The notes under the pieces were generated by a model, which made no database searches, was not told the DNA's origin, and was given only the letters and a program-made list of their open reading frames with translations. A stretch of 64,000 nucleotides of DNA from positions 23,341,753-23,405,752 of the forward strand of contig NC_091172.1 in the NCBI RefSeq assembly GCF_040958095.1. Reading direction: 5' to 3'. This document shows, piece by piece, positions 20,708 through 56,526 of the stretch. Positions within the stretch are counted from its first letter, which is position 1. Every line of letters begins with the position of its first letter. The position numbers and the translations under genes are program-made. The stretch is from Procambarus clarkii (Eukaryota > Arthropoda > Malacostraca > Decapoda > Cambaridae).

Positions 20708-21930
<1,223 letters not shown>

Positions 21931-25340: not shown

Positions 25341-25350
25341 ATCATCATCA

Positions 25351-26172: not shown

Positions 26173-29147
26173 ACCTACCCAGGCCCTACCCCAGACCTTC
26201 CTAGATGCCCAGCCCCCATTCGCCTCCCAAGCACCCCTCCAGACCCCAGAAACTCCTCAGACTCCCCCCAGCCCCCATTCAACCCCCCCCAGACATTCCC
26301 CCCAGATTCCCCCCAAACCCCCAGAGAAAGGGCAAACTCTGGTCCCAGAGTTTCCATGAAGAATCTCAAGGTTTGGTACACCAATGCTGATGAGGTATCT
26401 AATAAAGCAGAAGAGATAAAAGAAAGAGTGAGTGAGGCAGATCCTGATATAGTTGCAATAGTGAAAACTAAAATAAATGACATGATCTCAGATGCAATCT
26501 TTCCAGAGGGGTACCAGGTGATACGAAAAGAGAGGACACAGAGACAGGGAGGGTGAGTGGCACTCCTAGTAAAGCGGAAATGGAAGTTTGAGGACCTGGG
26601 AAATCGTGTTACTAATGAAAGTACAATCTTCATACATGGAACTCTGACAGTAGATGGGAGGAAGATTGTGATCTTGGTAATCTACAATACCCCACCAAAC
26701 AGTAGAAGACCCAGGCAGGAGTATGATGACAACAACAAGGCATGTATAGATGAACTGCAGAAGGCAGCAGCATTAGCTCACAGAATGAGAGTGAAGCTGC
26801 TGGTCATGGGGGACCTAAATCATGGAGAGATAAATTAGGAATCAAGGAATCCCCATGGAGGGGACGAAACGTGGGGAGCAAAGCTAGTAGATGTTATAGA
26901 CAGGAATTGCGTAACACAACACGTGAAGGAAGACACAAGGGAATGAGGAGGAGATGCACCGAGCCTATTAGACCTGATTTTCACCCAGAACGTAGAAGAC
27001 ATCAAGAATTTGGAGAATGAAATACCTCTAGGGGCCAGCGACCATTGTGTCCTAGTCTTTGACTACATGATGGAATTCAAACTTGTGACCATGGGGCAAG
27101 AGGTCTGGAAAAGGAGAGTTGACTACAGGAGGATAAGGGACTATCTGGGAGAAGTGCAGTGGGAGGAAGAAATTAGAGGAAAAACAGTCCAAGATATGAT
27201 GGACCTAGTCATACGGAAATACCAGGAGGCCGAGGAGAGATTTATACCAACAGTAAAGGAAAAAATAAGAGGGAATACAATAACCCATGGTTTAATAGAC
27301 AGTGTCAGGAAGCAAAAATGGCCAGCAGGCGGGAGTGGAGGAAGTACAGAAGACAAAGGACAGAGGACAACAGGATCAGATGCAACAGAGCTAGGAATGA
27401 TTACATTAACATAAGACGAACATCGGAAAGGAACTATGAGAACGATATTGCGATCAAAGCTAAATTACTACACAGCAATATAAGAAGAAAAATGTCAGTG
27501 AACGACCAAGTGACAAGACTAAGGAAAAGGGAGGGGGCATATACTGAAAGAGACAAGGAAATCTGCGAGGCACTGAATGCCAGTTTCCATGGAGTGTTCA
27601 CAACCGAGCCTGAGCAGCTCCCATTGTTAGAAGAGATTACCCTAGATGAAAGACTATCAGATATAGAGGTGACAGCAGAGGAGGTAATGAAACAGTTGAC
27701 AACACTGGATGCAATTAAAGCGGTTGGACTAGACAAAGTATCACCGTGGATACTAAAAGATGAAGCGCAGGCTCTCAGCGTGCCTCTGGCAATGATCTTT
27801 AATGAGTCACTTATGTCGGGAGAATTGCCCAGTTGCTGGAAGAAGGCAAATGTCGTACCGATTTTCAAGAAAGGCGATAGGGAGGAGGCACTTAACTATA
27901 GACCTGTATCACTGACAAGCATCCCCTGTAAAATACTTGAAAGAATAATTAGGCTACGACTGGTTGCACACCTGGAGAACGTTAGGTTTGTGAACAAACA
28001 TCAACATGGATTCTGGAAAGGGAAATCGTCCCTAACAAACCTTTTGGAATTCTATGATAAAATAACGAGGATAAGACAGGACAGAGATGGTTGGGCAGAC
28101 TGCATATTTCTGGACTGCCAAAAAGCCTTTGATACAGTACCGCACATGAGACTGCTGTTCAAACTCGAGAGGCAGGCGGGGGGTGGGGGGGAAAGGCCCT
28201 AACATGGATAAGGAACTACCTAACAGGAAGGAGCCAAAGAGTTACGGTAAGGGGCGAGAAGTCGGACTGGCGAACAGTAACACGTGGAGTACCTCAAGGA
28301 TCGGTGCTGGGACCAATTCTGTTTCTAATACTGTATATGTTAACGACATGTTTACAGGAGTAAAGTCCTACATGTCAATGTTCGCGGATGACGCAAAGTT
28401 GGTGAGAAGAGTTGTGACAGATGAGGATTGCAGGATCCTACAAGAGGACTTGAATAGGTTGCAGAGAAGGTCAGAGAAATGGCTACTGGAGTTCAACACG
28501 AGCAAATGTAAAGTTATGGAAATGGGACTAGGTGATACGAGACCAAAGGGACAGTACACAGTGAAGGGAAACTGCCTACCTGTGACGACGCGAGAAAGAT
28601 ACCTGGGCGTGGACGTAACACCTAATCTATCTCCTGAAGCACTCCTTAGAGTATGCCGCCTCATCATGGAGTCCACATCTGAAGAAGCATATAAGGAAAC
28701 TGAATAAGGTTCAGAGGATTGCAACGAGACTCGTCCCAGAGTTACGAGGGATGGGGTATGAGGAGCGCTTGAAGGAAATGTGCGTTACGACACTAGAAAG
28801 AAGAAGGGAGAGGGGGACATGATAGGAACGTATAAAATACTCAGGGGGATTGACAGAGTGGACATAGACGAAATGTTCACACGGAATAGTAACAGAACGA
28901 GAGGACATGGGTGGAAGCTGGAAACTCAGATGAGTCACAGAGATGTTAGGAAGTTTTCCTTTAGCGTGAGAGTAGTGGGGAAATGGAATGCGCTTCAGGA
29001 ACAGGCTGTGGAAGCAAATACTATTCATAATGTTAAAACTAGGTATGATAGGGAAATAGGACCGGAGTCATTGCTGTAAACAACCGATGCTCGAAAGGCG
29101 GGATCCAAGAGTCAATGCTCGATCCTGCAGACACAACTAGGTAAGTA
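26173..29147 (+). mobile_element. near-full-length CR1-like LINE (family A), broken
   Basis: Plus-strand non-LTR retrotransposon. The APE-type endonuclease spans about 26356-27084: LKVWYTNADEVSNKAEEI, ADPDIVAIVKTKIND, MGDLNHGEI (normally GDFN) and PLGASDHCVLVF (SDH motif). The linker is 27090-27480. The reverse transcriptase covers 27640-28640: KAVGLDKVSPWILKDE, SCWKKANVVPIFKKGDREE, NYRPVSLTSIPCKILERII, HQHGFWKGKSSLTNLLEF, IFLDCQKAFDTVPH (motif A), GVPQGSVLGPILFLI (motif B, about 28287) and SMFADDAKLV (motif C, 28378). The C-terminus is 28711-29080. Stops at 26554 and 26836, frameshifts near 27330, 28180 and 28280 and a ~50-codon loss around 28650 make it inactive. The 3' UTR ends GATCCTGCAGACACAACTAG at about 29147. 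Confidence 0.9.
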
Positions 29148-29538: not shown

Positions 29539-30712
29539 AGACCAAGCTTAAGCAGCACCATAAGACCAAGCTTAAGCAGCACCACAAGACCAAGCTTAAG
29601 CAGCACCACAAGACCAAGCTTAAGCAGCACCACAAGACCAAGCTTAAGCAGCACCATAAGACCAAGCTTAAGCAGCACCATAAGACCAAGCTTAAGCAGC
29701 ACCACAAGACCAAGCTTAAGCAGCACCACAAGACCAAGCTTAAGCAGCACCAAAAGACCAAGCTTAAGCAGCACCATAAGACCAAGCTTAAGCAGCACCA
29801 TAAGACCAAGCTTAAGCAGCACCATAAGACCAAGCTTAAGCAGCACCACAAGACCAAGCTTAAGCAGCACCACAAGACCAAGCTTAAGCAGCACCATAAG
29901 ACCAAGCTTAAGCAGCACCACAAGACCAAGCTTAAGCAGCACCACAAGACCAAGCTTAAGCAGCACCACAAGACCAAGCTTAAGCAGCACCATAAGACCA
30001 AGCTTAAGCAGCACCATAAGACCAAACTTAAGCAGCACCATAAGACCAAGCTTAAGCAGCACCACAAGACCAAGCTTAAGCAGCACCACAAGACCAAGCT
30101 TAAGCAGCACCACAAGACCAAACTTAAGCAGCACCATAAGACCAAGCTTAAGCAGCACCATAAGACCAAGCTTAAGCAGCACCACAAGACCAAGCTTAAG
30201 CAGCACCACAAGACCAAGCTTAAGCAGCACCATAAGACCAAGCTTAAGCAGCACCACAAGACCAAGCTTAAGCAGCACCATAAGACCAAGCTTAAGCAGC
30301 ACCATAAGACCAAGCTTAAGCAGCACCACAAGACCAAGCTTAAGCAGCACCATAAGACCAAGCTTAAGCAGCACCACAAGACCAAGCTTAAGCAGCACCA
30401 TAAGACCAAGCTTAAGCAGCACCATAAGACCAAGCTTAAGCAGCACCACAAGACCAAGCTTAAGCAGCACCATAAGACCAAGCTTAAGCAGCACCACAAG
30501 ACCAAGCTTAAGCAGCACCATAAGACCAAGCTTAAGCAGCACCATGAGACCAAGCTTAAGCAGCACCATAAGACCAAGCTTAAGCAGCACCATAAGACCA
30601 AGCTTAAGCAGCACCATGAGACCAAGCTTAAGCAGCACCATAAGACCAAGCTTAAGCAGCACCATGAGACCAAGCTTAAGCAGCACCATAAGACCAAGCT
30701 TAAGCAGCACCA
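29539..30712. repeat. 24-bp minisatellite with HindIII-type site, ~49 copies
   Basis: Units of ACCAAGCTTAAGCAGCACC plus CATAA, CACAA or CATGA before G. CATGAG variants are confined to the distal end. Each unit holds AAGCTT overlapping CTTAAG. Because 24 is a multiple of three, frames of 396-468 codons are open on both strands (RPSLSSTI on +, KLGLMVLL and LVLWCCLS on -). These are artefacts. Confidence 0.99.
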
Positions 30713-31200
30713 TATCAACAATAACATTCACAAAAATCAATTAACGAAATAATTGAGTCCCTCGTTCAGGGTGAAGAAGATAAAGAAAATGTATTACCAC
30801 ATAAAAGCTTTATGCAGTTATTTGCAACACAACCAAACACTTATTGCAACAAAACGCTCACTGCGCTGCAACACTCGCTACAACGAAGCTCGGGTCAACA
30901 AAACACTCGCTATAACGAAACACTTGATACACCGAGACGTTCACTATAACCACAACACTATAACACAACAGTGGCAAGTTTGGTGAAGGAAAATACTTAT
31001 CACAACAAAGACACTGAAGACAGCATATAGCTTCAACACTCACTACAACACTACAACAAACACTACTACACTACAACACTACAACACTACAACACAACAA
31101 TCGTCAGAGTGAAACACTGCATCACAACACTTGCTTCAACCAAGCACTTACTAAACTAAGGGTCCCCGTAGTACAGTAGGATTCGTTCTCGATTCACAAT
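30713..31200. repeat. degenerate CAACACTCACTACAACA-type region
   Basis: A/C-rich low-complexity sequence in which ACAACACT, ACTCGCTA and ACACTACAACA recur irregularly. No coding content recognised. Confidence 0.55.
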
Positions 31201-35285: not shown

Positions 35286-36178
35286 GGCCACAATGGGTAG
35301 CAACTGGGTTCTTTGCTGGTGGAACTAAAGTTATGCTATCCGGCCCCAAGTTAGTAGTGGCTTTCAAGGAGTGAGCTCGGTAATGCAAGTAAAACACAAA
35401 GGGGGGGGGGGGTTGCATTGAATACGACACTTCATCAGTTATCAATATATTCACATATAATCACTTTCCCATCATCTCATATATAATCCTAAAGGAAGTA
35501 TTACTACACTTAATATGTGCACAAGTGTCTCTCTCATAGGACACTAAGCGCTCCTCGATGCTCAATCGATGCAGTCTTGTCAGCTACCGTGTTTCCTCAA
35601 CACACAGTACCGTCCTCAACCAGTACTGGGAAACACCAACAAGTCTACCCTAGCCACGGGCCAGCGAAAACACAGTCTCACTAGGTGCTCCTTGTGAACG
35701 CCCACAATCACTCCAGCCTGGTGCTGGCAGAGAACATCAGCCTCGCGCTGCTGGGCCTCTTCACGTACAAATACAAGGGTAGTGAACCCCTGGCAGGAGC
35801 TTCTTGCAACTAGCTAGTTACACTCCTCCGTAGCACCTTACTGTCGGTCGTCTCTTCCGTCAGCCAGTCCCGGGTACGCCGAATTCTGTCACTGCCACTT
35901 CACAGGCAGACAGTAGAACACTACACAGTTCTTCTCCGGCGGCGGCTCACTGCTTCCGTAAAGCAGAATGGAGTAGAGAGATATTGGCTGCCCTTGGTAG
36001 ACTGACTGTCCTCGTACCACAGCAGCCCTACGTCGACTCTGTGGATACAGACGTCATCAGTACACTGATCAGTACATGGGACACTAGGAAATATCACTTA
36101 CGTACTCTGACATAGACATACAGCAGCTACCTCTCGAGCTGACTAGGACAGGAATCTAGCGCCTCTTGCTGGTATAAT
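35286..36178. other. unassigned ~0.9-kb sequence before the giant palindrome
   Basis: Starts near TGTTACGGCCACAATGGGTA, contains a poly-G run (35401), and is otherwise of balanced composition without open frames or tandem repeats. It could be a repeat such as a solo LTR, but no ends, duplications or motifs support that firmly. Confidence 0.35.
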
Positions 36179-36184
36179 CCTATC
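36179..36184. repeat. target-site duplication CCTATC (left)
   Basis: Immediately precedes the left arm. An identical copy follows the right arm at 49216. Confidence 0.85.
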
Positions 36185-36203
36185 AGTAGTAGGGATGGCT
36201 CCA

Positions 36204-36242
36204 CACAGACGATATTTTTTTTCAGGTCAAATATCGTCTGTG
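36204..36242. repeat. subterminal hairpin in left arm (mirror 49158-49196)
   Basis: CACAGACGATATTT and AAATATCGTCTGTG form a perfect 14-bp stem around an 11-nt loop, 19 bp in from the arm end. The mirror hairpin lies in the right arm. Confidence 0.95.
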
Positions 36243-36440
36243 CGCCCCAAGGGTTTCAGGTAAATTTAGAATATCCCCTGTGCGCCCCAAGGGTTTCAGG
36301 TCAAATATCCCCTGTGCGCCCCAAGGGTTTCAGGTCAAATATCCCCTGTGCGCCCCAAGGGTTTCAGGTCAAATATCCCCTGTGCGCCCCAAGGGTTTCA
36401 GGTCAAATATCCCCTGTGCGCCCCAAGGGTTTCAGGTAAA
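36240..36440. repeat. 33-bp tandem repeat in left arm (mirror 48960-49160)
   Basis: About six units with CCTGTGCGCCCCAAGGGTTT and CAGGTCAAATA. First and last units read CAGGTAAATT instead. Confidence 0.95.
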
Positions 36441-37039
36441 TTTTGTCAGTCACAGATTTTAGAAGTAAGGATTTCTTATGAGAAAAATAATTTCCGAGAC
36501 TTAGAAGTTTGTTAAAGCCTTATGGGAGAAATTCAAATAACGTGTGTAGCACTTTAGGGCTTCCAGGAGAACTCTACGGACATATTTTACATGTTTTCAA
36601 CTTACAAAATCGTCTATGTAAGCCTTAGTTATTCATATAAATTTAGAAAATCACCTGTGTAAGTCATGGTTTTCAAGTCTCGTACCTCACACCCCCCTCC
36701 CTCCCCCCTTACCTCGCAATCTCTCGCGTCACCTTTATTTACTTTGCGCCCAGCCAGCCAGCCAGTCAGCTCTTAATCTTATCTTATCTTATCCGTAATA
36801 TCTGGACCGTCTCTCTCTCTCTCTCCCTCCTCTCTCTCTCTCCTCTTCATATTATTCCCTCTTCCTATTTTCTGACATCGTATGTTTTCTCCTTTTCATT
36901 AAGCAAGTTAGTTTTTACACAAATAAATCGCGTTAGTAAGCAAGTTCTAGCTCACGTTCCCCACCTTAGTCCCCTGTCATATAATGAATACTATCATTCC
37001 AATCCCTCTAAAATTTAAAAATAATCATATTTCAAACGT

Positions 37040-37700
37040 AGTTCAATACAGTAATTTAGTTACCAAGCTCCAGCGCTTGTCCTCCGCCTTAGCTCTCTCT
37101 CGTATCTTCGTTAGTAACAGATCAATTCCCCTGAAATTTTTACCCTCTGTATTTCAGGCACCATAAATAAGATCAAAACAGTTACCAAGCTCCAGCGCTT
37201 GTCCTCCGCCTTAGTTCTCTTTCATATCTTTGCAAATAAACCATCAATTTCCCTTAAATTTTTACCCTCTGTATTTCAGACACCGTAAATAAAATCAAGT
37301 CAGTTACTGAGCTCCAGCTCTCGTCCCCGCCTTAGTTCTCCTTCGTATCTTTGTAAATAACCCATCAATTTCCCTAAAATTAAAAGCAGACATACTTCAA
37401 AGTTAGTAAATAAGATCAAGTCAGTTACTGAGCTCCAGCTCTTGTCCCCCACCCTCTTCCACCCTCAAGTCTTTGTAAATAAACCATCAATTTCCCCGAA
37501 ATTTTTACCCTCTGTATTTCAGACATAGTAAATATGAAGTAACAAATATAAAACTCTAGCTCTTGTCCTCTGTCCAAGTTCACTCATGTAAATTCATTAC
37601 TATCAGTCCAAATCCCCCTGAGATTTAAACACCCAACTACATTTTCAGACATAGTAAATAAAACCAGTTCAGTTATCAAGTTTCAACTCTTGTGCCCCAG
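37040..37700. repeat. degenerate ~120-150-bp tandem units in left arm (mirror 47700-48360)
   Basis: TTTTACCCTCTGTATTTCAG recurs near 37139, 37259 and 37506, with CAAGCTCCAGCGCTTGTCCT or GAGCTCCAGCTCTTGTCC between. About five units with drift. Confidence 0.8.
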
Positions 37701-37974
37701 CTTAGTTCATTTGTGCAAGTTCTTTATTTTCCAACTAAATCACCTGAGATTTAAGATCACCTTATTTTCTAACGAAGTAAAATTAATCTGGACATTAGCA
37801 AAGCTCCATTTCCTCAGCCTTAGATCATCAGACATAAATATATTCGATCAAGTCCCTCTCCAGCCTATCTGTTTGTCTGAGTAATTACTTTACCCTTCTC
37901 ATCCCCAACGTATCAATCCCCAACGTATCAAAACCTTCAATAATCATACTGTATTTGCATATTTTCTCTATATT

Positions 37975-38500
37975 CAGCTGTGTTCTTCACATTTTGTCCA
38001 TGTTTTCTTTGTTCACTCCATGTTCTTCAAATGTTCACAGTCCCATTCAGTTCATATTTTCACAAGTATCTCCATTTTTTCTGTAATCTTTCTCTTAGTC
38101 TCATTACTTTCTCTACAAATTCTAGTCATATTTTCTATGTTTTCATGTTCATCACATGTTCTCTTTACAACTTTTATACTCAATATTCATGCTAACTTCC
38201 ATATTTTTGTGTTCTTTGTCAATATTCATGTTCCTCTACAAGTTCATGTTCCTCACAAGATCACTTCGTTTTTCACCTTCACTTACATGTTTTCTACATT
38301 CTTTGTCATATTCTCCATGTTCTTCACAAGTCCATTGTTCATTCTTTGTATTCCCTATTCTCCTTATCATGTTTTCATGTTCTCTGTAAGTTCATATTCC
38401 CAGCATGTTCACTGTATTCATCAACTTTTCTTACATGTGTTCTTTGCCATGTTCCCCATATGTTCTCTGGGTTTTTCCCCTTACATGTTATGTAACGTTC
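37975..38500. repeat. CATGTTC-rich degenerate repeat in left arm (mirror 46900-47425)
   Basis: TTCATGTTC, CATGTTCT and TCACAAGT recur irregularly. A 161-codon Phe/Ser-rich frame lies here and, inverted, in the other arm. It has no recognisable domain and looks like a composition artefact. Confidence 0.75.
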
Positions 38501-39120
38501 CTTAACTAAAAAAATCTTTCGCCAATCAACTAAAACATAGTCACTTTCGTCATTTCTCAACTAAACCTATTATCCAGTCAACTAAAAATAGTCAGAAATA
38601 GCCTCGTTCAACCTTTCTCTTAGCTAAAAATTGTCAAAGGAAACTTCTTTCAGCACTTTCTTAACAGCCGCTATGTTTCATCAAGTAAGAAAAAATTGTC
38701 AAAGGAAACTTTCCAAAACTGTTCATAACTAGCTTTTATCCATCGTCAATCAACTAAATAATAACTTTCATCATTTCTTAACTAAACTTATTCCCCAGTC
38801 ATCAGAAAATAGCCGTGTTCTTCATGTTTCATTGTCATTTCATAACTAAAATTATCCATCAATCAACAGAAAAAGTCATATTCATCATTTCGTAACAGCC
38901 ATTATGTTTTCGTCAAGTAAGAAAATATAGTCAAAGATATCTATCATCGTCGTTCTTAACTTCCATTTATACTTTGTGGAGCACTAAAAATAGTCAAATG
39001 TAACTTTTTCAACACTTTCGTAACTAAAATTATATGTCGCTAAGTAAGAAAAATAGTCAAATGTAACTTTTTCAGCACTTTCGTAAAAATTATATGTCGT
39101 CAAGTACGAAAAATAGTCAA
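38501..39120. repeat. AACTAAA/GTCAAAGG degenerate repeat in left arm (mirror 46280-46899)
   Basis: AAAAATAGTCAAATGTAACT, TTTCAGCACTTTCTTAAC and CAATCAACTAAA recur with drift. Confidence 0.75.
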
Positions 39121-40690
39121 AGGTGCTCTCCGTGACACCAAAGTTACTCTTCGAGAAATCAAAGACACTCTTCAATACATCAAGGACTTACTCAAAGATA
39201 CCAAAGTTACACTCTAAGACATCCTTCGAGACATCAAAGACATCCTTTAAGACTTCAAGGGCACTCTTCGAGATATCAAAAGACACTCTCAAACACTCAA
39301 AATTTACTCGCATCCTCAAAGTTATTCTCAGAGTCATCAAAAAGTTAATCTCATTCATCAAAATGCTATTCTCTAAGTAGCCTTTCGTTCATCAGAGAAA
39401 CTTTCTAAGACATCTTCGTTCATTAAAGTTAATCTCAGAGGCATAAAAGTTATTCTCGGAGCTATCAAAATTAATCTCTAAAACAACAAAAGTTAATCTC
39501 TATCATCAATGTTGTTTCAAAGACATCAAAGTTACTTTTCATTACATCAAAGACGCATTCAAATACTACCCATGTTCTCAGAAGTCATTCTCTAAGCCAT
39601 CAATGTTCTTCTCCAAGACATAAAAGTTATTCTCTATGTCATCAAAAGTTATTCTCTGAGCTAACAAAATACTACTCATGTTCTCAAAGACATTCTCCAA
39701 TTCATCAATGTTGTTTCAAAGACATCAAAGTTAATCTCAGAGTTATCCAAAGACATTCTCAAAGTCATCTAAAGTTATTCTCTAAGACATCAAAGTTATT
39801 CTAAGAGTTATCAAAAGTTATTCTCAGTCATGTTATGTTATTCTCTAACTCACTTCCATTCATCAAAAGACATTCTCTAAGCCCTCAAAGTTATTCCCAG
39901 AGTCATCAAAAAGTTATTCTTCAAAACATAAAATTTGCTCTGTAAGATATCTTCGTTCATCAAACTTATTCTCAGAGATATCTAAAGTTATTCTCAGAAC
40001 AATCAAAAGTTATTCTAAGACAACAAAGTCTTTCTCAGAGTCATCAAAGTTATTCTCAGAGTCACCTTTGTTATTCAAAGAAGCCTTCTGAGACATCCTC
40101 GTTCAACAAAAACTGTCCTCAGAGCCATCAAAAAGTTAAATACAGTCGTCAAAGTTATTCTTTAAGTATCTTTTCGTTCATCAGAGAAGCTTTCTAAGAC
40201 ATCTTTGTTCATCCAAGTTGTTCTCTAAGACATCAATCTTGTTCTCTAAGACATCAAAGATGTTCTCTAAATCATAAAAGTTAATCTCTAAGTTACCTTC
40301 GTTCATCAGAGAAACTTTCCAAAACATCTTCGTTCATCAAACTTGTTTTCAAAGTCATCAAATGTTATTCTCGAAGTCATCAAAGATATTTTCAGAGACA
40401 TCTAAAGTTAATTTCTATGTTATAAAAGTTATTCTCAGAGACATCTAAAGTTAATCTTGGTCATCAAAGTTGTTCTCTAAACATCAATGTTGTTCTCCAA
40501 GACATCAAAGATGTTCTCAAAATCATAAAAGTTATTCCCAGAGCTATCAAAGTGATCTCTAATTCATCTTCGTTCTCCCAAAGTTGTTCTCTAAGACACC
40601 TTCGTTCATCAAAGAAACTCTCCTTCTTCCATCATGTTATTCTTTAAGACATCTTCAGTCATAAAATTTTCTCTCCAAAATGTAACTAGT
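39121..40690. repeat. AAAGTTATTCTCAGAG degenerate repeat block in left arm (mirror 44710-46279)
   Basis: The largest block of the arm (~1.6 kb). Loosely repeated units of ATCAAAGTTATTCTCAGAGT and TCTCTAAGACATCAAAG, roughly 20-25 bp each, dozens of copies. Confidence 0.85.
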
Positions 40691-40769
40691 TCAGCTTTTC
40701 ATACCAAACCTGCATTTCTGTTAAAATATATTTTCGCAGACACTTTACCCTAAAACTGTTCTCTGAACT

Positions 40770-41640
40770 ATCCTAACTTAACTTACCTTACCTTACCTAT
40801 CTTACCTAACTTTACCTATGTTACCTTACCTTACCTACCTTTCCTAACTTAACCTATCTTACCTAACTTTACCTATGTTACCTTACCTTACCTACCTTTC
40901 CTAACCTAACTTTACCTATGTTACCTTACCTTACCTACCTTTCCTAACTTAACCTGCTTAACCTATCTTACCTAACTTTACCTATGTTACCTTACCTTAC
41001 CTACCTTTCCTAACCTAACTTTACCTATGTTACCTTACCTTACCTACCTTTCCTAACCTAACTTTACCTATGTTACCTTACCTTACCTACCTTTCCTAAC
41101 TTATCCTGCTTAACCTATCTTACCTAACTTTACCTATGTTACCTTACCTACCTTTCCTAACTTAACCTGCTTAACCTATCTTACCTAACTTTACCTATCT
41201 TACCTAACTTTACCTATGTTACCTTACCTTACCTACCTTTCCTAACTTAACCCGCTTAACCTATCTTACCTAACTTTACCTATCTTACCTAACTTAACTT
41301 TCATAACCTAACTTTACCTATCCTAACATAACTTACCTTACCTTCCCTATCTTACCTAACTTTACCTATCCTAACATAACTTACCTTACCTTCCCTAACT
41401 TAACCTAACTTTACCTATCCTAACTTAACTTACCTTTCATAACCTAACTTTACCTATCCTAACATAACTTACCTTACCTTCCCTAACTTAACCTAACTTT
41501 ACCTATCCTAACTTAACTTACCTAACTTATTCTGCTTAACATAACTTACCTTACCTTCCCTATCTTACCTAACTTTACCTATCCTATCCTAACCTAACTT
41601 GTCTTACCTAACTTAATCTTACTTTCCCAAACTGATGTAT
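40770..41640. repeat. TTACC/TTAACCTA array in left arm (mirror 43751-44630)
   Basis: Composite units of CCTAACTTTACCTATGTTAC and CTTACCTACCTTTCC. Superficially telomere-like, but not a clean arthropod TTAGG/CCTAA tract. The only clear length difference between arms is here: the right arm has 9 extra bases (CTGCTTAAC on this strand) near 44540, absent at about 40855. Confidence 0.92.
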
Positions 41641-41749
41641 CCTAACTTATCTAGTCCAACCAGACATGCTCTAACTTACATAAGTATTCCTTCTTGTCTT
41701 TGTGTTTCGTCAATCATTGTCTCATATTCATTTACTCATTTCATTAGTT

Positions 41750-42105
41750 AATTTCTCAAATGGGCACTTATGCATTTCAAGTGCTATTTTGTTAGAGATT
41801 GGATATTTAAGCATTTCAAAGAATTATAATTTCTCAAATGGTCACTTATGCATTTCAAGTGCTATTTGTTAGAGATTGGATATTTAAGCATTTCAAAGAA
41901 TTTTTGTTATATATGGGCATTTACTCATTTCAAGGGATAATTTCTCAAATGGACGTTTTTGCATTTCAAGTGTTATTTGTTTAAGATTGGGTGTTTAACC
42001 ATTTCAAAGGTTTTTCATATATATGGGAACTTACTCGTTTCAAGGGCCAATTTCTCAAATGGTCATTTTTGCAGATCAAGGGTTATTTGTTAAAGTTCAT
42101 CAAGT
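41750..42105. repeat. ~75-bp tandem repeat in left arm (mirror 43286-43641)
   Basis: About four units with AATTTCTCAAATGG, GCATTTCAAGTGCTATTTG and GATTGGATATTTAAGCATTT. Confidence 0.9.
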
Positions 42106-42134
42106 TGCTCATAAGTTGTATTTATTATGTTTGT

Positions 42135-42362
42135 TATCATATGTTCTTATTCCCCAACCCCTTAACCTAACCTCTTGTAATCTTAGTGTATTTGGTAGGT
42201 TCTATCATATGTTCTTATTCCCCAACCCCTTAACCTAACCTCTTGTAATCTTAGTGTATTTGGTAGGTTCTATCATATGTTCTTATTCCCCAACCCCTTA
42301 ACCTAACCTCTTGTAATCTTAGTGTATTTGGTAGGTTCTATCATATGTTCTTATTCCCCTAA
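42135..42362. repeat. 68-bp tandem repeat in left arm (mirror 43029-43256)
   Basis: Just over three units; TATCATATGTTCTTATTCCC recurs at 42135, 42203, 42271 and 42339. Confidence 0.95.
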
Positions 42363-42474
42363 CCTTTCAGATGTAGTTTGTGGTGTTTTTGACGTATTTG
42401 TTGAATATATTATCCTTTTCCTAACCTTTCAGATGTAGTTTTGTTTCTCCTTTTTGTATATTTTTACCCAAACC

Positions 42475-42916
42475 ATCTTTCCTTCTTTACTTTGATTCTC
42501 CTACTCCTTCTAACCCTCCTTTTTCTATCTCTCTCCCTTATTCTCTCTCTTCCTCCCCCTCTCTCTCCCTCATTTGCTCAAATGCTCTCTTGTTTCTCAA
42601 ATTCAAGTCTTATTGCTCCCATTCTCACACCCTCATTCTCATTCACTTAGTTTTTCTTTTTCTCAATTCAAGTCTTAGTGCTCCCATGCCCACACTCTCT
42701 CTCATTCTCTCTTCTTTGGTCCCATTTTCTTCCGCCCCCTCTCTCTTACTCCTTGCTCTTCTTTCATGCTCTCACTCCCTTGAGCTCTTGTTTCTCAATT
42801 TCAAGTCTTAGTAGATCTGATTCTTTACTATTGTAATTTTATTATTACTAAGATAAAGAATGAACTTATATGTGAAAACAAAGTAAAAGAAGGAAAGAAG
42901 GTTAAGTGGGATGATG
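42475..42916. other. 442-bp unique spacer between the arms
   Basis: Pyrimidine-rich with three diverged copies of TTCAAGTCTTAGTGCTCCCA, ending in A/T-rich sequence. No coding content. A transposase-bearing relative would be expected to have its genes here. Confidence 0.85.
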
Positions 42917-45900
42917 GGTTTGGGTAAAAATATACAAAAAGGAGAAACAAAACTACATCTGAAAGGTTAGGAAAAGGATAATATATTCAACAAATACGTT
43001 AAAAACACCACAAACTACATCTGAAAGGTTAGGGGAATAAGAACATATGATAGAACCTACCAAATACACTAAGATTACAAGAGGTTAGGTTAAGGGGTTG
43101 GGGAATAAGAACATATGATAGAACCTACCAAATACACTAAGATTACAAGAGGTTAGGTTAAGGGGTTGGGGAATAAGAACATATGATAGAACCTACCAAA
43201 TACACTAAGATTACAAGAGGTTAGGTTAAGGGGTTGGGGAATAAGAACATATGATAACAAACATAATAAATACAACTTATGAGCAACTTGATGAACTTTA
43301 ACAAATAACCCTTGATCTGCAAAAATGACCATTTGAGAAATTGGCCCTTGAAACGAGTAAGTTCCCATATATATGAAAAACCTTTGAAATGGTTAAACAC
43401 CCAATCTTAAACAAATAACACTTGAAATGCAAAAACGTCCATTTGAGAAATTATCCCTTGAAATGAGTAAATGCCCATATATAACAAAAATTCTTTGAAA
43501 TGCTTAAATATCCAATCTCTAACAAATAGCACTTGAAATGCATAAGTGACCATTTGAGAAATTATAATTCTTTGAAATGCTTAAATATCCAATCTCTAAC
43601 AAAATAGCACTTGAAATGCATAAGTGCCCATTTGAGAAATTAACTAATGAAATGAGTAAATGAATATGAGACAATGATTGACGAAACACAAAGACAAGAA
43701 GGAATACTTATGTAAGTTAGAGCATGTCTGGTTGGACTAGATAAGTTAGGATACATCAGTTTGGGAAAGTAAGATTAAGTTAGGTAAGACAAGTTAGGTT
43801 AGGATAGGATAGGTAAAGTTAGGTAAGATAGGGAAGGTAAGGTAAGTTATGTTAAGCAGAATAAGTTAGGTAAGTTAAGTTAGGATAGGTAAAGTTAGGT
43901 TAAGTTAGGGAAGGTAAGGTAAGTTATGTTAGGATAGGTAAAGTTAGGTTATGAAAGGTAAGTTAAGTTAGGATAGGTAAAGTTAGGTTAAGTTAGGGAA
44001 GGTAAGGTAAGTTATGTTAGGATAGGTAAAGTTAGGTAAGATAGGGAAGGTAAGGTAAGTTATGTTAGGATAGGTAAAGTTAGGTTATGAAAGTTAAGTT
44101 AGGTAAGATAGGTAAAGTTAGGTAAGATAGGTTAAGCGGGTTAAGTTAGGAAAGGTAGGTAAGGTAAGGTAACATAGGTAAAGTTAGGTAAGATAGGTAA
44201 AGTTAGGTAAGATAGGTTAAGCAGGTTAAGTTAGGAAAGGTAGGTAAGGTAACATAGGTAAAGTTAGGTAAGATAGGTTAAGCAGGATAAGTTAGGAAAG
44301 GTAGGTAAGGTAAGGTAACATAGGTAAAGTTAGGTTAGGAAAGGTAGGTAAGGTAAGGTAACATAGGTAAAGTTAGGTTAGGAAAGGTAGGTAAGGTAAG
44401 GTAACATAGGTAAAGTTAGGTAAGATAGGTTAAGCAGGTTAAGTTAGGAAAGGTAGGTAAGGTAAGGTAACATAGGTAAAGTTAGGTTAGGAAAGGTAGG
44501 TAAGGTAAGGTAACATAGGTAAAGTTAGGTAAGATAGGTTAAGCAGGTTAAGTTAGGAAAGGTAGGTAAGGTAAGGTAACATAGGTAAAGTTAGGTAAGA
44601 TAGGTAAGGTAAGGTAAGTTAAGTTAGGATAGTTCAGAGAACAGTTTTAGGGTAAAGTGTCTGCGAAAATATATTTTAACAGAAATGCAGGTTTGGTATG
44701 AAAAGCTGAACTAGTTACATTTTGGAGAGAAAATTTTATGACTGAAGATGTCTTAAAGAATAACATGATGGAAGAAGGAGAGTTTCTTTGATGAACGAAG
44801 GTGTCTTAGAGAACAACTTTGGGAGAACGAAGATGAATTAGAGATCACTTTGATAGCTCTGGGAATAACTTTTATGATTTTGAGAACATCTTTGATGTCT
44901 TGGAGAACAACATTGATGTTTAGAGAACAACTTTGATGACCAAGATTAACTTTAGATGTCTCTGAGAATAACTTTTATAACATAGAAATTAACTTTAGAT
45001 GTCTCTGAAAATATCTTTGATGACTTCGAGAATAACATTTGATGACTTTGAAAACAAGTTTGATGAACGAAGATGTTTTGGAAAGTTTCTCTGATGAACG
45101 AAGGTAACTTAGAGATTAACTTTTATGATTTAGAGAACATCTTTGATGTCTTAGAGAACAAGATTGATGTCTTAGAGAACAACTTGGATGAACAAAGATG
45201 TCTTAGAAAGCTTCTCTGATGAACGAAAAGATACTTAGAGAATAACTTTGACGACTGTATTTAACTTTTTGATGGCTCTGAGGACAGTTTTTGTTGAACG
45301 AGGATGTCTCAGAAGGCTTCTTTGAATAACAAAGGTGACTCTGAGAATAACTTTGATGACTCTGAGAAAGACTTTGTTGTCTTAGAATAACTTTTGATTG
45401 TTCTGAGAATAACTTTAGATATCTCTGAGAATAAGTTTGATGAACGAAGATATCTTACAGAGCAAATTTTATGTTTTGAAGAATAACTTTTTGATGACTC
45501 TGGGAATAACTTTGAGGGCTTAGAGAATGTCTTTTGATGAATGGAAGTGAGTTAGAGAATAACATAACATGACTGAGAATAACTTTTGATAACTCTTAGA
45601 ATAACTTTGATGTCTTAGAGAATAACTTTAGATGACTTTGAGAATGTCTTTGGATAACTCTGAGATTAACTTTGATGTCTTTGAAACAACATTGATGAAT
45701 TGGAGAATGTCTTTGAGAACATGAGTAGTATTTTGTTAGCTCAGAGAATAACTTTTGATGACATAGAGAATAACTTTTATGTCTTAGAGAAGAACATTGA
45801 TGGCTTAGAGAATGACTTCTGAGAACATGGGTAGTATTTGAATGCGTCTTTGATGTAATGAAAAGTAACTTTGATGTCTTTGAAACAACATTGATGATAG

Positions 45901-48900
45901 AGATTAACTTTTGTTGTTTTAGAGATTAATTTTGATAGCTCCGAGAATACCTTTTATGCCTCTGAGATTAACTTTAATGAACGAAGATGTCTTAGAAAGT
46001 TTCTCTGATGAACGAAAGGCTACTTAGAGAATAGCATTTTGATGAATGAGATTAACTTTTTGATGACTCTGAGAATAACTTTGAGGATGCGAGTAAATTT
46101 TGAGTGTTTGAGAGTGTCTTTTGATATCTCGAAGAGTGCCCTTGAAGTCTTAAAGGATGTCTTTGATGTCTCGAAGGATGTCTTAGAGTGTAACTTTGGT
46201 ATCTTTGAGTAAGTCCTTGATGTATTGAAGAGTGTCTTTGATTTCTCGAAGAGTAACTTTGGTGTCACGGAGAGCACCTTTGACTATTTTTCGTACTTGA
46301 CGACATATAATTTTTACGAAAGTGCTGAAAAAGTTACATTTGACTATTTTTCTTACTTAGCGACATATAATTTTAGTTACGAAAGTGTTGAAAAAGTTAC
46401 ATTTGACTATTTTGAGTGCTCCACAAAGTATAAATGGAAGTTAAGAACGACGATGATAGATATCTTTGACTATATTTTCTTACTTGACGAAAACATAATG
46501 GCTGTTACGAAATGATGAATATGACTTTTTCTGTTGATTGATGGATAATTTTAGTTATGAAATGACAATGAAACATGAAGAACACGGCTATTTTCTGATG
46601 ACTGGGGAATAAGTTTAGTTAAGAAATGATGAAAGTTATTATTTAGTTGATTGACGATGGATAAAAGCTAGTTATGAACAGTTTTGGAAAGTTTCCTTTG
46701 ACAATTTTTTCTTACTTGATGAAACATAGCGGCTGTTAAGAAAGTGCTGAAAGAAGTTTCCTTTGACAATTTTTAGCTAAGAGAAAGGTTGAACGAGGCT
46801 ATTTCTGACTATTTTTAGTTGACTGGATAATAGGTTTAGTTGAGAAATGACGAAAGTGACTATGTTTTAGTTGATTGGCGAAAGATTTTTTTAGTTAAGG
46901 AACGTTACATAACATGTAAGGGGAAAAACCCAGAGAACATATGGGGAACATGGCAAAGAACACATGTAAGAAAAGTTGATGAATACAGTGAACATGCTGG
47001 GAATATGAACTTACAGAGAACATGAAAACATGATAAGGAGAATAGGGAATACAAAGAATGAACAATGGACTTGTGAAGAACATGGAGAATATGACAAAGA
47101 ATGTAGAAAACATGTAAGTGAAGGTGAAAAACGAAGTGATCTTGTGAGGAACATGAACTTGTAGAGGAACATGAATATTGACAAAGAACACAAAAATATG
47201 GAAGTTAGCATGAATATTGAGTATAAAAGTTGTAAAGAGAACATGTGATGAACATGAAAACATAGAAAATATGACTAGAATTTGTAGAGAAAGTAATGAG
47301 ACTAAGAGAAAGATTACAGAAAAAATGGAGATACTTGTGAAAATATGAACTGAATGGGACTGTGAACATTTGAAGAACATGGAGTGAACAAAGAAAACAT
47401 GGACAAAATGTGAAGAACACAGCTGAATATAGAGAAAATATGCAAATACAGTATGATTATTGAAGGTTTTGATACGTTGGGGATTGATACGTTGGGGATG
47501 AGAAGGGTAAAGTAATTACTCAGACAAACAGATAGGCTGGAGAGGGACTTGATCGAATATATTTATGTCTGATGATCTAAGGCTGAGGAAATGGAGCTTT
47601 GCTAATGTCCAGATTAATTTTACTTCGTTAGAAAATAAGGTGATCTTAAATCTCAGGTGATTTAGTTGGAAAATAAAGAACTTGCACAAATGAACTAAGC
47701 TGGGGCACAAGAGTTGAAACTTGATAACTGAACTGGTTTTATTTACTATGTCTGAAAATGTAGTTGGGTGTTTAAATCTCAGGGGGATTTGGACTGATAG
47801 TAATGAATTTACATGAGTGAACTTGGACAGAGGACAAGAGCTAGAGTTTTATATTTGTTACTTCATATTTACTATGTCTGAAATACAGAGGGTAAAAATT
47901 TCGGGGAAATTGATGGTTTATTTACAAAGACTTGAGGGTGGAAGAGGGTGGGGGACAAGAGCTGGAGCTCAGTAACTGACTTGATCTTATTTACTAACTT
48001 TGAAGTATGTCTGCTTTTAATTTTAGGGAAATTGATGGGTTATTTACAAAGATACGAAGGAGAACTAAGGCGGGGACGAGAGCTGGAGCTCAGTAACTGA
48101 CTTGATTTTATTTACGGTGTCTGAAATACAGAGGGTAAAAATTTAAGGGAAATTGATGGTTTATTTGCAAAGATATGAAAGAGAACTAAGGCGGAGGACA
48201 AGCGCTGGAGCTTGGTAACTGTTTTGATCTTATTTATGGTGCCTGAAATACAGAGGGTAAAAATTTCAGGGGAATTGATCTGTTACTAACGAAGATACGA
48301 GAGAGAGCTAAGGCGGAGGACAAGCGCTGGAGCTTGGTAACTAAATTACTGTATTGAACTACGTTTGAAATATGATTATTTTTAAATTTTAGAGGGATTG
48401 GAATGATAGTATTCATTATATGACAGGGGACTAAGGTGGGGAACGTGAGCTAGAACTTGCTTACTAACGCGATTTATTTGTGTAAAAACTAACTTGCTTA
48501 ATGAAAAGGAGAAAACATACGATGTCAGAAAATAGGAAGAGGGAATAATATGAAGAGGAGAGAGAGAGAGGAGGGAGAGAGAGAGAGAGACGGTCCAGAT
48601 ATTACGGATAAGATAAGATAAGATTAAGAGCTGACTGGCTGGCTGGCTGGGCGCAAAGTAAATAAAGGTGACGCGAGAGATTGCGAGGTAAGGGGGGAGG
48701 GAGGGGGGTGTGAGGTACGAGACTTGAAAACCATGACTTACACAGGTGATTTTCTAAATTTATATGAATAACTAAGGCTTACATAGACGATTTTGTAAGT
48801 TGAAAACATGTAAAATATGTCCGTAGAGTTCTCCTGGAAGCCCTAAAGTGCTACACACGTTATTTGAATTTCTCCCATAAGGCTTTAACAAACTTCTAAG

Positions 48901-49215
48901 TCTCGGAAATTATTTTTCTCATAAGAAATCCTTACTTCTAAAATCTGTGACTGACAAAATTTACCTGAAACCCTTGGGGCGCACAGGGGATATTTGACCT
49001 GAAACCCTTGGGGCGCACAGGGGATATTTGACCTGAAACCCTTGGGGCGCACAGGGGATATTTGACCTGAAACCCTTGGGGCGCACAGGGGATATTTGAC
49101 CTGAAACCCTTGGGGCGCACAGGGGATATTCTAAATTTACCTGAAACCCTTGGGGCGCACAGACGATATTTGACCTGAAAAAAAATATCGTCTGTGTGGA
49201 GCCATCCCTACTACT
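42917..49215 (-). repeat. right arm of the giant inverted repeat (~6.30 kb)
   Basis: Reverse complement of 36185-42474 with very few differences. Those noticed are a G/A change at about 42391 (left) versus 43000 (right), and the 9-bp indel in the TTACC array. All repeat blocks of the left arm occur here in mirror order. Confidence 0.95.
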
Positions 49216-49221
49216 CCTATC
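49216..49221. repeat. target-site duplication CCTATC (right)
   Basis: Immediately follows the right arm and is identical to 36179-36184. Confidence 0.85.
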
Positions 49222-51627: not shown

Positions 51628-53983
51628 CATATAGTACTGTCACTATGGCGGTGTGTTCACTCACAGGATGAGTGACGCTGCCCAATACTGTCACTATGGC
51701 GGTGTGTTCACTCACAGGATGAGTGGCGCTGCCCAATACTGTCACTATGGCGGTGTGTCCGCTCACAGGATGAGTGACGCTGCCCAGTACTGTCACTATG
51801 GCGGTGTGTCCACTCACAGGATGAGTGACGCTGCTCAATACTGTCACTATGGCGGTGTGTCCACTCACAGGATGAGTGACGCTGCCCAGTACTGTCACTA
51901 TGGCGGTGTGACCACTCACAGGATGAGTGACGCTGCCCAGTACTGTCACTATGGCGGTGTGACCACTCACAGGATGAGTGACGCTGCCCAATACTGTCAC
52001 TATGGCGGTGTGTCCACTCACAGGATGAGTGACGCTGCCCAATACTGTCACTATGGCGGTGTGTCCACTCACAGGATGAGTGGCCCTGCCCAGTACTGTC
52101 ACTATGGCGGTGTGACCACTCACAGGATGAGTGACGCTGCCCAGTACTGTCACTATGGCGGTGTGACCACTCACAGGATGAGTGACGCTGCCCAGTACTG
52201 TCACTATGGCGGTGTGACCACTCACAGGATGAGTGACGCTGCCCAGTACTGTCACTATGGCGGTGTGTCCACTCACAGGATGAGTGACGCTGCTCAATAC
52301 TGTCACTATGGCGGTGTGTCCACTCACAGGATGAGTGACGCTGCCCAGTACTGTCACTATGGCGGTGTGACCACTCACAGGATGAGTGACGCTGCCCAGT
52401 ACTGTCACTATGGCGGTGTGACCACTCACAGGATGAGTGACGCTGCCCAGTACTGTCACTATGGCGGTGTGTCCACTCACAGGATGAGTGACGCTGCTCA
52501 ATACTGTCACTATGGCGGTGTGTCCACTCACAGGATGAGTGACGCTGCCCAGTACTGTCACTATGGCGGTGTGACCACTCACAGGATGAGTGACGCTGCC
52601 CAGTACTGTCACTATGGCGGTGTGACCACTCACAGGATGAGTGACGCTGCCCAGTACTGTCACTATGGCGGTGTGACCACTCACAGGATGAGTGACGCTG
52701 CCCAGTACTGTCACTATGGCGGTGTGTCCACTCACAGGATGAGTGACGCTGCCCAATACTGTCACTATGGCGGTGTGTCCACTCACAGGATGAGTGACGC
52801 TGCCCAGTACTGTCACTATGGCGGTGTGTCCACTCACAGGATGAGTGACGCTGCCCAATACTGTCACTATGGCGGTGTGACCACTCACAGGATGAGTGAC
52901 GCTGCCCAGTACTGTCACTATGGCGGTGTGTCCACTCACAGGATGAGTGACGCTGCCCAATACTGTCACTATGGCGGTGTGTCCACTCACAGGATGAGTG
53001 ACGCTGCCCAGTACTGTCACAATGGCGGTGTGTCCACTCACAGGATGAGTGACGCTGCCCAATACTGTCACTATGGCGGTGTGACCACTCACAGGATGAG
53101 TGACGCTGCCCAATACTGCCACTATGGCGGTGTGTCCACTCACAGGATGAGTGACGCTGCCCAATACTGTCACTATGGCGGTGTGTCCACTCACAGGATG
53201 AGTGACGCTGCCCAGTACTGTCACAATGGCGGTGTGTCCACTCACAGGATGAGTGACGCTGCCCAATACTGTCACTATGGCGGTGTGTCCACTCACAGGA
53301 TGAGTGACGCTGCCCAATACTGCCACTATGGCGGTGTGACCACTCACAGGATGAGTGACGCTGCCCAATACTGCCACTATGGCGGTGTGTCTACTCACAG
53401 GATGAGTGACGCTGCCCAATACTGTCACTATGGCGGTGTGTCCACTCACAGGATGAGTGACGCTGCCCAATACTGCCACTATGGCGGTGTGACCACTCAC
53501 AGGATGAGTGACGCTGCCCAATACTGTCACTATGGCGGTGTGTCCACTCACAGGATGAGTGACGCTGCCCAATACTGTCACTATGGCGGTGTGTCCACTC
53601 ACAGGATGAGTGGCGCTGCCCAATACTGTCACTATGGCGGTGTGTCCACTCACAGGATGAGTGACGCTGCCCAATACTGTCACTATGGCGGTGTGTCCAC
53701 TCACAGGATGAGTGACGCTGCCCAATACTGTCACTATGGCGGTGTGTCCACTCACAGGATGAGTGACGCTGCCCAATACTGTCACTATGGCGGTGTGTCC
53801 ACTCACAGGATGAGTGACGCTGCCCAGTACTGTCACTATGGCGGTGTGTCCACTCACAGGATGAGTGACGCTGCCCAATACTGTCACTATGGCGGTGTGA
53901 CCACTCACAGGATGAGTGACGCTGCCCAGTACTGTCACTATGGCGGTGTGTCCACTCACAGGATGAGTGACGCTGCCCAGTAA
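51628..53983. repeat. 51-bp minisatellite, ~46 copies
   Basis: Units contain TGTCACTATGGCGGTGTG and CTCACAGGATGAGTGACGCT. Variants at GTGTCC/GTGACC, CCCAAT/CCCAGT and GCTGCC/GCTGCT are combined in blocks. The GCTGCTCAATAC variant near 52290 and 52494 (204 bp = four units) and the earlier one near 51831 (nine units before) indicate higher-order duplication. Frames of 776 (+) and 788 (-) codons run the full length because 51 is divisible by three. Neither has a recognisable domain and both are treated as artefacts. Confidence 0.98.
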
Positions 53984-54440: not shown

Positions 54441-54741
54441 ATGTTGGTGGGGGGGTGGGTGCCGGGGACTGGTCGGTGATGAGTGGGGGTGGGGGGTGGG
54501 GGGGAGAGGGGGGAAGGTGGGGGTGTGTGAGCGTGGGGAGGGGGGGGGGGAGTGAGGGAGTGCGGGCGCCCTCACCCACCTGTCCAGGCACCTGCGTCTC
54601 ACCTGCTGCTTGTTCCCCTGATTTAGCTCCACCTGTCCTCCCCTCACACCAGGGGTCGTCACCCCCTGGTGACTCCCAGTGTCTGCCCCGCCTCCCCCCC
54701 CCCACAACCCACACAACACCTCACCCCCCACAACACCTTAC
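54441..54741. other. G-rich then C-rich spacer
   Basis: Poly-G tracts at 54445-54560, then C-rich sequence to the 15-bp array. No gene. Confidence 0.5.
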
Positions 54742-56526
54742 TCCACTAGTGTGTACTCCACTAGTGTGTACTCCACTAGTGTGTACACCACTAGTGTGTA
54801 CTCCACTAGTGTGTACTCCACTAGTGTGTACTCCACTAGTGTGTACTCCACTAGTGTGTACACCACTAGTGTGTACACCACTAGTGTGTACTCCACTAGT
54901 GTGTACTCCACTAGTGTGTACACCACTAGCGTGTACTCCACTAGCGTGTACTCCACTAGTGTGTACTCCACTAGTGTGTACTCCACTAGTGTGTACTCCA
55001 CTAGTGTGTACTCCACTAGTGTGTACTCCACTAGTGTGTACTCCACTAGTGTGTACTCCACTAGTGTGTACACCACTAGCGTGTACTCCACTAGCGTGTA
55101 CTCCACTAGTGTGTACTCCACTAGTGTGTACTCCACTAGTGTGTACACCACTAGCGTGTACTCCACTAGCGTGTACTCCACTAGTGTGTACTCCACTAGT
55201 GTGTACTCCACTAGCGTGTACTCCACTAGCGTGTACTCCACTAGTGTGTACTCCACTAGTGTGTACTCCACTAGTGTGTACACCACTAGCGTGTACTCCA
55301 CTAGCGTGTACTCCACTAGTGTGTACTCCACTAGTGTGTACTCCACTAGTGTGTACTCCACTAGTGTGTACTCCACTAGCGTGTACTCCACTAGTGTGTA
55401 CTCCACTAGTGTGTACTCCACTAGTGTGTACTCCACTAGTGTGTACTCCACTAGTGTGTACTCCACTAGTGTGTACTCCACTAGCGTGTACTCCACTAGT
55501 GTGTACTCCACTAGTGTGTACTCCACTAGTGTGTACTCCACTAGCGTGTACTCCACTAGTGTGTACTCCACTAGCGTGTACTCCACTAGCGTGTACTCCA
55601 CTAGTGTGTACTCCACTAGTGTGTACACCACTAGTGTGTACTCCACTAGCGTGTACTCCACTAGTGTGTACTCCACTAGTGTGTACTCCACTAGTGTGTA
55701 CTCCACTAGTGTGTACTCCACTAGCGTGTACACCACTAGTGTGTACTCCACTAGTGTGTACACCACTAGTGTGTACTCCACTAGTGTGTACTCCACTAGT
55801 GTGTACTCCACTAGCGTGTACTCCACTAGCGTGTACTCCACTAGCGTGTACTCCACTAGTGTGTACTCCACTAGTGTGTACTCCACTAGTGTGTACTCCA
55901 CTAGTGTGTACTCCACTAGCGTGTACTCCACTAGCGTGTACTCCACTAGCGTGTACTCCACTAGTGTGTACTCCACTAGCGTGTACTCCACTAGTGTGTA
56001 CTCCACTAGTGTGTACTCCACTAGTGTGTACTCCACTAGTGTGTACTCCACTAGTGTGTACTCCACTAGTGTGTACTCCACTAGTGTGTACTCCACTAGT
56101 GTGTACTCCACTAGTGTGTACACCACTAGTGTGTACTCCACTAGCGTGTACTCCACTAGTGTGTACTCCACTAGTGTGTACTCCACTAGTGTGTACTCCA
56201 CTAGTGTGTACTCCACTAGTGTGTACTCCACTAGTGTGTACACCACTAGTGTGTACTCTACTAGTGTGTACACCACTAGTGTGTACTCCACTAACATGTA
56301 CTCCACTAACATGTACTCCACTAACATGTACTCCACTAGCGTGTACACCACTAGTGTGTACTCCACTAGTGTGTACTCCACTAGTGTGTACACCACTAGT
56401 GTGTACTCCACTAGCGTGTACTCTACTAGCGTGTACTCTACTAGCGTGTACACCACTAGTGGTGTACACCACTAGTGTGTACACCACTAGTGTGTACTCC
56501 ACTAACATGTACTCCACTAGCGTGTA
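54742..56526. repeat. 15-bp minisatellite, ~119 copies
   Basis: Units of TCCACTAGTGTGTAC (each with an ACTAGT palindrome). Variants are ACACCA for CTCCA, AGCGTG for AGTGTG and a distal AACATG cluster (56290-56335). One 1-bp phase shift occurs near 56460. Frames of up to 729 codons on both strands are artefacts. Confidence 0.99.

Follow-up and report, generated by a model that had tools for sequence, protein, structure and literature searches.

How does a 13-kb piece of a decapod chromosome come to be almost entirely its own mirror image, and what keeps it so? The question is raised by an inverted repeat in Procambarus clarkii, within 64,000 nucleotides of contig NC_091172.1 (positions 23,341,753 to 23,405,752 of the forward strand, assembly GCF_040958095.1). 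This whole stretch is referred to here as the window, and it is C23:23341753-23405752 in the genome that was searched (4.03 Gb, 2308 contigs; C-numbers are contig labels). With a probability of roughly 0.8, we consider the palindrome to be a non-autonomous Polinton (Maverick) with a palindromic body, mobilized by a gene-bearing helper Polinton of the kind found on C50, born by snap-back synthesis and homogenized in its arms by replication. Its parts are as follows.

36179..36184, no strand: left target-site duplication CCTATC (sequence; single copy in 5/5 fetched paralogous empty sites)
36185..42477, + strand: left arm, 6293 bp, C-/T-rich when read inward (self-BLAST and alignment)
36185..36190, + strand: Polinton-type terminal motif (AGT)2 (sequence)
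36185..36924, + strand: outer 740 bp common with the C50 Polinton terminal repeat, 85-89% identity (alignment)
36205..36241, + strand: short inverted repeat near the element end that could form a hairpin (by eye)
36220..36441, + strand: 34-bp tandem repeat, 6.4 copies, within the terminal repeat (repeat scan)
38710..38735, + strand: arm 26-mer serving as the family tag, 515+493 exact genome places (exact pattern search)
42478..42912, no strand: central spacer, 435 bp (alignment; homologue search)
42913..49215, - strand: right arm, 6303 bp, 99.76% identical to the left arm in reverse complement (self-BLAST and alignment)
48476..49215, - strand: mirror of the outer 740 bp common with the C50 Polinton (alignment)
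48959..49180, - strand: mirror of the 34-bp tandem repeat (repeat scan)
49210..49215, - strand: terminal motif (ACT)2 (sequence)
49216..49221, no strand: right target-site duplication CCTATC (sequence)

The initial annotation had described near-perfect inverted arms of ~6.29 kb, and self-BLAST and alignment agree: 36185-42477 matches the reverse complement of 42913-49215 at 99.76% over 6303 columns, with 5 mismatches, one 9-bp gap and one 1-bp gap. The separate arms and spacer that it proposed are also present, although the spacer measures 435 bp and not 442 bp. The arms of ~6.3 kb form ~97% of the 13-kb element, whose ends read AGTAGTAGGG...CCCTACTACT, and CCTATC does flank the unit on both sides. 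Chance was rejected as the source of the inverted repeat on the strength of its length, without a computed estimate. In the palindrome (36185-49215) and its siblings the strands are asymmetric, the inward reading being C-/T-rich with a GC skew of mostly -0.2 to -0.6 per kb; by reasoning only, C-deamination of a displaced single strand was rejected as a cause, as it predicts the wrong sign.

Insertion and form of the family

With 40 of 1973 candidates scored, the first 300 bp of the element have at least 70 places in the genome, and many of these form inverted pairs spaced by 12-14 kb. Its end pattern has 322 forward and 297 reverse exact places genome-wide and the arm tag 515+493, the reversed-pattern control giving 0 in each case. 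The first 100 listed end places comprise 37 +/- pairs and 26 unpaired ends, with spans of 11.7-14.25 kb in 34 of the 37 pairs and of 7.4, 8.3 and 9.9 kb in the other three. The first 100 listed tag places, all on contigs C1-C7, fall into 52 clusters (42 reading +-, two ++-- and eight single), and among the 44 inverted clusters the tags are 6.9-8.6 kb apart in 41 and 3.5-4.3 kb apart in three. Ends and tags alike recur as inverted pairs, so the family numbers several hundred and the palindrome is its regular form.

The window element was inserted once, with a 6-bp duplication. Its left flank (36005-36184) is part of a repeat with ~40 scored places including its own, most of them 95-97% alike over 118 bp, and all five fetched paralogues of the flank continue without the element, with CCTATC in one and CCTGTC in four. 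The single transposition event proposed in the initial annotation is thus upheld by a direct duplication and an empty site, the latter found in flank paralogues and not in an allele; further copies with different 6-bp duplications, which it had suggested looking for, also exist. Ten sibling loci were fetched, each as two halves, and exact 6-bp duplications are present in all seven independent ones (C35, C70a, C50, C9, C83, C70b and C68). The three uncounted loci are C16, with a masked left end, and C1200 and C833, which provide no evidence for a duplication because their GAGCTC is its own reverse complement. When 20 of the 37 end pairs were taken in listing order, 19 had exact 6-bp duplications, differing between pairs, and in the remaining one (C1:1180541-1192350, at 1.18 Mb) an exact ACTGAC duplication emerges once the left end is taken to include a third AGT. 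The (AGT)2//(ACT)2 ends of these 20 pairs are fixed by the construction of the search pattern, and the pairs at C1 9.09 Mb and 9.91 Mb have common flanks and a common target duplication, so they count as one insertion. An inverted match at a depth of 2.5-3.2 kb occurs in 19 of the 20, four of these matches being shorter than 300 bp (77, 117, 146 and 293 bp); the pair lacking one, at C3 41.5 Mb, spans 9.9 kb and contains the helper capsid tag.

The C38 end has a single AGT and the left end at C1 1.18 Mb a third one, and slips in the number of AGT units would fit the jumping-back start of protein-primed synthesis. Several target duplications are GTGGTG or CACCAC, or lie within short tandem repeats, which could reflect a preference or the make-up of the genome.

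Could the palindrome be an artefact of the assembly or library? C1200 and C833 (L019-L022) give the idea some substance: these two small contigs contain the same palindrome and GAGCTC between mirror-image flanks, as from an assembler folding one locus, and a single folded locus probably underlies both. In the window, however, the flanks differ, the duplication is direct, an empty site exists and the arms carry differences of their own, and 44/52 tag clusters on C1-C7 are inverted pairs. We therefore attach next to no credence to an artefact.

Kinship with a gene-bearing Polinton

At 85-89% identity, the two ends of the C50 element each align with the outermost 740 bp of the window arm. C50 has the same ends as the palindromes, AACATC duplications and a terminal repeat of ~1.1 kb, in which a 40-bp array (6.9 copies) is similar in sequence to the 34-bp repeat of the window. 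The open frames between its ends are read as a protease, a 467-aa major capsid protein, a 314-aa minor capsid protein, an integrase, an ATPase and a 1329-aa polymerase (PolB). The integrase core with chromodomain and the Pox_A32-type packaging ATPase are above Pfam cut-offs, PolB matches the DNA polymerase family phrog_1907 (E 4e-17) and the protease match is weak (E 0.038); searched by sequence against PDB, neither PolB nor the protease had a match. The capsid labels were given because the gene order fits the vertebrate Maverick module of integrase, minor capsid, PW, major capsid and protease, as set out in a passage of PMC8097293.

This helper is itself abundant. The 467-aa protein has 91 scored copies at 99-100%, 88 of them without a stop, and a 28-mer of the putative capsid gene has 102+108 = 210 genome places. 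A capsid match on the same strand lies within 12 kb of 33/35 scored PolB matches; one or two stop codons fall in the searched frame of 18 of these 35, many perhaps upstream of the true start. Ten helper copies were tried (ten of the first twelve capsid matches, leaving aside C50 and C4:51.15 Mb). In eight of them the two termini could be located, and all eight have exact 6-bp duplications. Judged by protein identity, the helper has multiplied recently. Relatives of its putative capsid protein and PolB were sought in viral_contigs and none was confirmed, and the end repeat and end pattern of the palindrome had no exact match there.

A non-autonomous Polinton derivative was among the suggestions of the initial annotation, together with a search for a relative bearing polymerase B and integrase between such ends. 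C50 is such a relative, with integrase, ATPase and PolB supported, and it has its ends in common with the palindromes, along with 0.74 kb of terminal sequence, a likeness which, on the alignment, is not convergence. The 6-bp duplications, the Polinton ends and this common 0.74 kb therefore point to a non-autonomous Polinton of foldback architecture, and mobilization of the palindromes in trans is strongly implied. As had been noted from the outset, no enzyme gene is visible in the window element: Pfam gives no match at E 0.01 for three of its longest open reading frames, the six helper proteins (the ATPase in part) give no tblastn match at E 1, and nothing of the Polinton gene set (PolB, integrase, ATPase, protease, capsid) was found. 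A scan of Rfam gave no match at gathering scores.

The foldback-like architecture that the initial annotation recognized holds as well, the whole body of the element being a palindrome with long, internally repetitive inverted arms, a feature of the Foldback (FB) and Galileo type. FB elements have a 9-bp target duplication, and kinship of the window element with FB is not supported, given its 6-bp duplication and Polinton ends. A cut-and-paste transposon of the Foldback/Galileo type with very long terminal repeats would account for the repetitive inverted arms, the lack of a detected transposase inside and the recombinant elements, all of which are described for Galileo in passages of PMC3573991. 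However, the duplications are 6 bp in the sets tested vs. 7 bp for Galileo, the ends and 0.74 kb are common with a Polinton that encodes PolB and integrase, and the repeats of Galileo, the longest of its superfamily, reach only ~1.26 kb (same passages, PMC3573991). We regard this origin as very improbable.

A third kind of element, C70b (C70:5087400-5101000), has the same Polinton-type ends, a GACCAA duplication, a length of 12.5 kb and inverted ends of ~3 kb, and has more arm sequence in common with the palindromes than the helper has. No helper protein was found in it by tblastn. Its cargo includes BIR and RING apoptosis-inhibitor genes, a 425-aa protein and three further proteins that, by eye only, seem related. 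Of 99 scored copies of the 425-aa protein (at 94-100%), 93 are free of stops, and one copy of its gene is enclosed by a 12.8-kb end pair with duplication TCAGCC at C3 35.49 Mb. Two further elements, C83 (L023/L024) and C71 (L130/L131), each have two ends of different subtypes; ends therefore seem to be exchanged between elements.

Origin and equality of the arms

How a helper might give rise to a palindrome is suggested by two natural cases. Among the 91 scored capsid matches there are two inverted pairs, on C1675 and C38. The C1675 palindrome (C1675:8735-20628; 11,894 bp, of which the ends and centre were fetched) has helper sequence at its ends and centre, and two inverted capsid matches, and CACGAC stands to its left and right within flanking tandem repeats of direct orientation. 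At its centre the left copy runs to position 6971 of L015 and the return starts from 6825, with an 8-bp inverted homology and a loop of ~146 bp, and the centre of the C38 palindrome has a 13-bp imperfect homology and a loop of ~100 bp. These junctions are what snap-back synthesis would leave, and a snap-back origin of the palindromes is supported by these two cases; the template-switch centre is seen in them and not in the window family, in which the centre is common by descent. In the proposed mechanism, a growing strand would fold back at a short inverted homology and copy itself into a palindrome, which the helper PolB would then copy in trans from the (AGT)2 ends and the helper integrase would insert. 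From PolB and the end motif we infer that replication would be protein-primed and extrachromosomal.

The second question is why the arms remain alike. Within elements they are 98.1-99.99% identical over 4.5-6.5 kb in eight gene-free fetched loci (7.2 kb, flanks included, in C1200 and C833), whereas the left arms of most different elements are 84-95% alike in aligned blocks, C35 and C70a being sisters at 99.7-100%. At a depth of 2.5-3.2 kb the best match of the left arm is its own opposite arm in 16/27 elements, and in 15/27 the arms are 99.9-100% identical over the aligned stretch. A probe joining the spacer to 200 bp of each arm found homologues in 8/9 other elements (full in five, nearly full in C83, in pieces in C1200 and C833, none in C70b). 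With a palindrome centre common by descent, independently evolving arms would differ as much as the elements do; judging by these comparisons, the arms of one element are kept equal. A displaced single strand would fold into a 6-kb hairpin during replication and its mismatches would be corrected, and we infer that the arms are equalized in this manner. Mismatch correction of this type, through folded (panhandle) single strands, is found in the short terminal repeats of adenovirus.

Alternatively, the same family might have its arms equalized after insertion, by gene conversion in the chromosome and not in an extrachromosomal hairpin. Long chromosomal palindromes do undergo gene conversion, and in C83 the outer 2.5 kb are unequal and of two lineages while the inner 4 kb are 98-100% identical, rising toward the centre, a pattern that conversion fits as well. 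Yet the arms of C9, C70a, C83 and C70b differ by 1-7%, and the elements at C1 9.09 Mb and 9.91 Mb, with their common flanks and duplication, both retain a few left-right differences; such retained differences mean that conversion is not complete. We consider equalization by chromosomal conversion rather unlikely, although it is the likeliest of the competing explanations.

Several other points weigh against the reading of a helper-mobilized, snap-back-born and hairpin-equalized Polinton. Transposition and replication are read from sequence alone, neither having been observed. The capsid labels are putative ones taken from gene order alone: the 467-aa protein has Pfam matches below cut-off only (HORMA 0.0053, Y_phosphatase2 0.0094) and chance-level matches in PDB, and the 314-aa protein had no match in profile searches. 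For PolB nothing in Pfam reaches significance (best 0.16). The C1675 palindrome lies on a small contig (28 kb) in a tandem-repeat flank, and at the ends of the C38 palindrome no 6-bp duplication was seen. As to the arms, 11 of the 27 elements depart from the pattern, two having a sister copy, one no inverted match and eight overlapping only in part, and in two of these eight (C1 1.18 Mb and C83) another element matches about equally well or better. The arms of C70b are equal in the outer 3 kb only, and some 100% arms may be products of assembler collapse; those of the window are not, since they carry differences of their own.

Beyond its terminal 0.74 kb the window arm has no match in C50. With most of the arm lacking a counterpart in the helper, the palindromes might be relics of an older element, no longer moved by the modern Polinton. 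Against this stand the 0.74 kb at 85-89%, which is not convergence, and the 15/27 elements with arms at 99.9-100% and duplications still exact, which suggest recent insertion, although equal arms alone give no date. We find a relic highly unlikely.

Length, known systems and meaning

Helper copies measure 13,078-13,545 bp (n = 10; mean 13,366) and palindromes 11,769-13,980 bp (n = 25; mean 12,890), the latter set combining the 18 end pairs that carry the tag with seven fetched elements. Outside this set are 19 untagged end pairs (7.4-14.2 kb, including a palindromic one of 8.3 kb at C3 42.7 Mb), C16, C833 and C70b. Packaging is a natural idea because a gene-free element need not keep the length of its helper. 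The similarity of lengths hints at packaging without proving it, and is also explained by common descent; shorter palindromes exist, and an indel-compensation comparison on six arms gave a root-mean-square z of 0.68 over 15 non-independent pairs. With helpers of 13.1-13.5 kb, palindromes mostly of 12-14 kb and the two cargo elements that have both ends at 12.5 and 12.8 kb, we offer tentatively, as a possibility short of even odds, a size-matched system of three parts centred on an endogenous polintovirus with recent activity. In it the palindromes would be satellites resembling defective genomes, replicated as self-annealing hairpins and held near the size of the helper by travelling in its capsids.

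Elsewhere in the window there are very dense minisatellite arrays at 51635-53979 (51 bp x 46), 54739-56526 (15 bp x 119), 29539-30714 (24 bp x 49) and 59986-61573 (36 bp x 44.5). Reverse-transcriptase fragments lie at 21221-23747 (-), 25324-28707 (+) and 57495-58028 (+); the RVT_1 match passes the curated cut-off at 27177-28199 and 57495-58028 and is weak at 22605-23747. By eye only, the fragment at 21221-23747 (-) is Penelope-like with a GIY-YIG-like part.

The window element resembles Polintons/Mavericks in its 6-bp duplication and (AGT)2//(ACT)2 ends, and its helper in gene order, when set beside passages on the vertebrate set (PMC8097293). According to those passages, vertebrate Mavericks are 12.7-24.6 kb long, with the window element near the lower end, and their terminal repeats are 46-1447 bp, whereas the arms here are ~6.3 kb and no genes were found (PMC8097293). 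A non-autonomous Polinton was earlier suggested for Tlr of Tetrahymena, and in this idea the two systems are alike; Tlr, however, is argued to form an old lineage apart, which has a capsid gene of its own, and the passages in question describe no palindromic form (PMC4028283). The phrase "non-autonomous Polinton/Maverick" had no match in the open literature searched, and in the passages seen of a review of giant transposons, Polintons are treated without palindromic forms (PMC6431247). With FB, Galileo and Tetris the window element has in common very long, internally repetitive inverted arms and the lack of a transposase, and Tetris, in a passage of PMC4079207, is likewise a foldback element whose ends are common with another element. 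These three differ from it in superfamily and duplication length.

Viruses also offer parallels for the form. Adenoviruses have inverted-duplication variants, replicate by protein priming from inverted repeats and have their ends equalized through folded single strands, but they are not integrated and their repeats are of ~100 bp. Adeno-associated virus is a hairpin-ended parvovirus and not protein-primed. It does, however, produce palindromic snap-back defective genomes of the parent virus, as described in part of PMC8235507. The palindromes here differ in being integrated in hundreds of copies and known from genome sequence alone. With arms of ~6.3 kb that are held equal, 97% of a 13-kb element and hundreds of copies, they exceed every terminal repeat in the literature passages compared.

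Polintons carry homologues of capsid genes, and particles have not been observed, as stated in a passage of PMC8097293. If the palindromes do travel in helper capsids, they would point indirectly to the existence of Polinton particles. More broadly, gene-free satellites with the ends and nearly the length of their helper, together with snap-back junctions, would make two questions on Polintons testable in one animal. One is whether Polinton replication proceeds by strand displacement on linear DNA outside the chromosomes, the other whether Polinton DNA becomes packaged.

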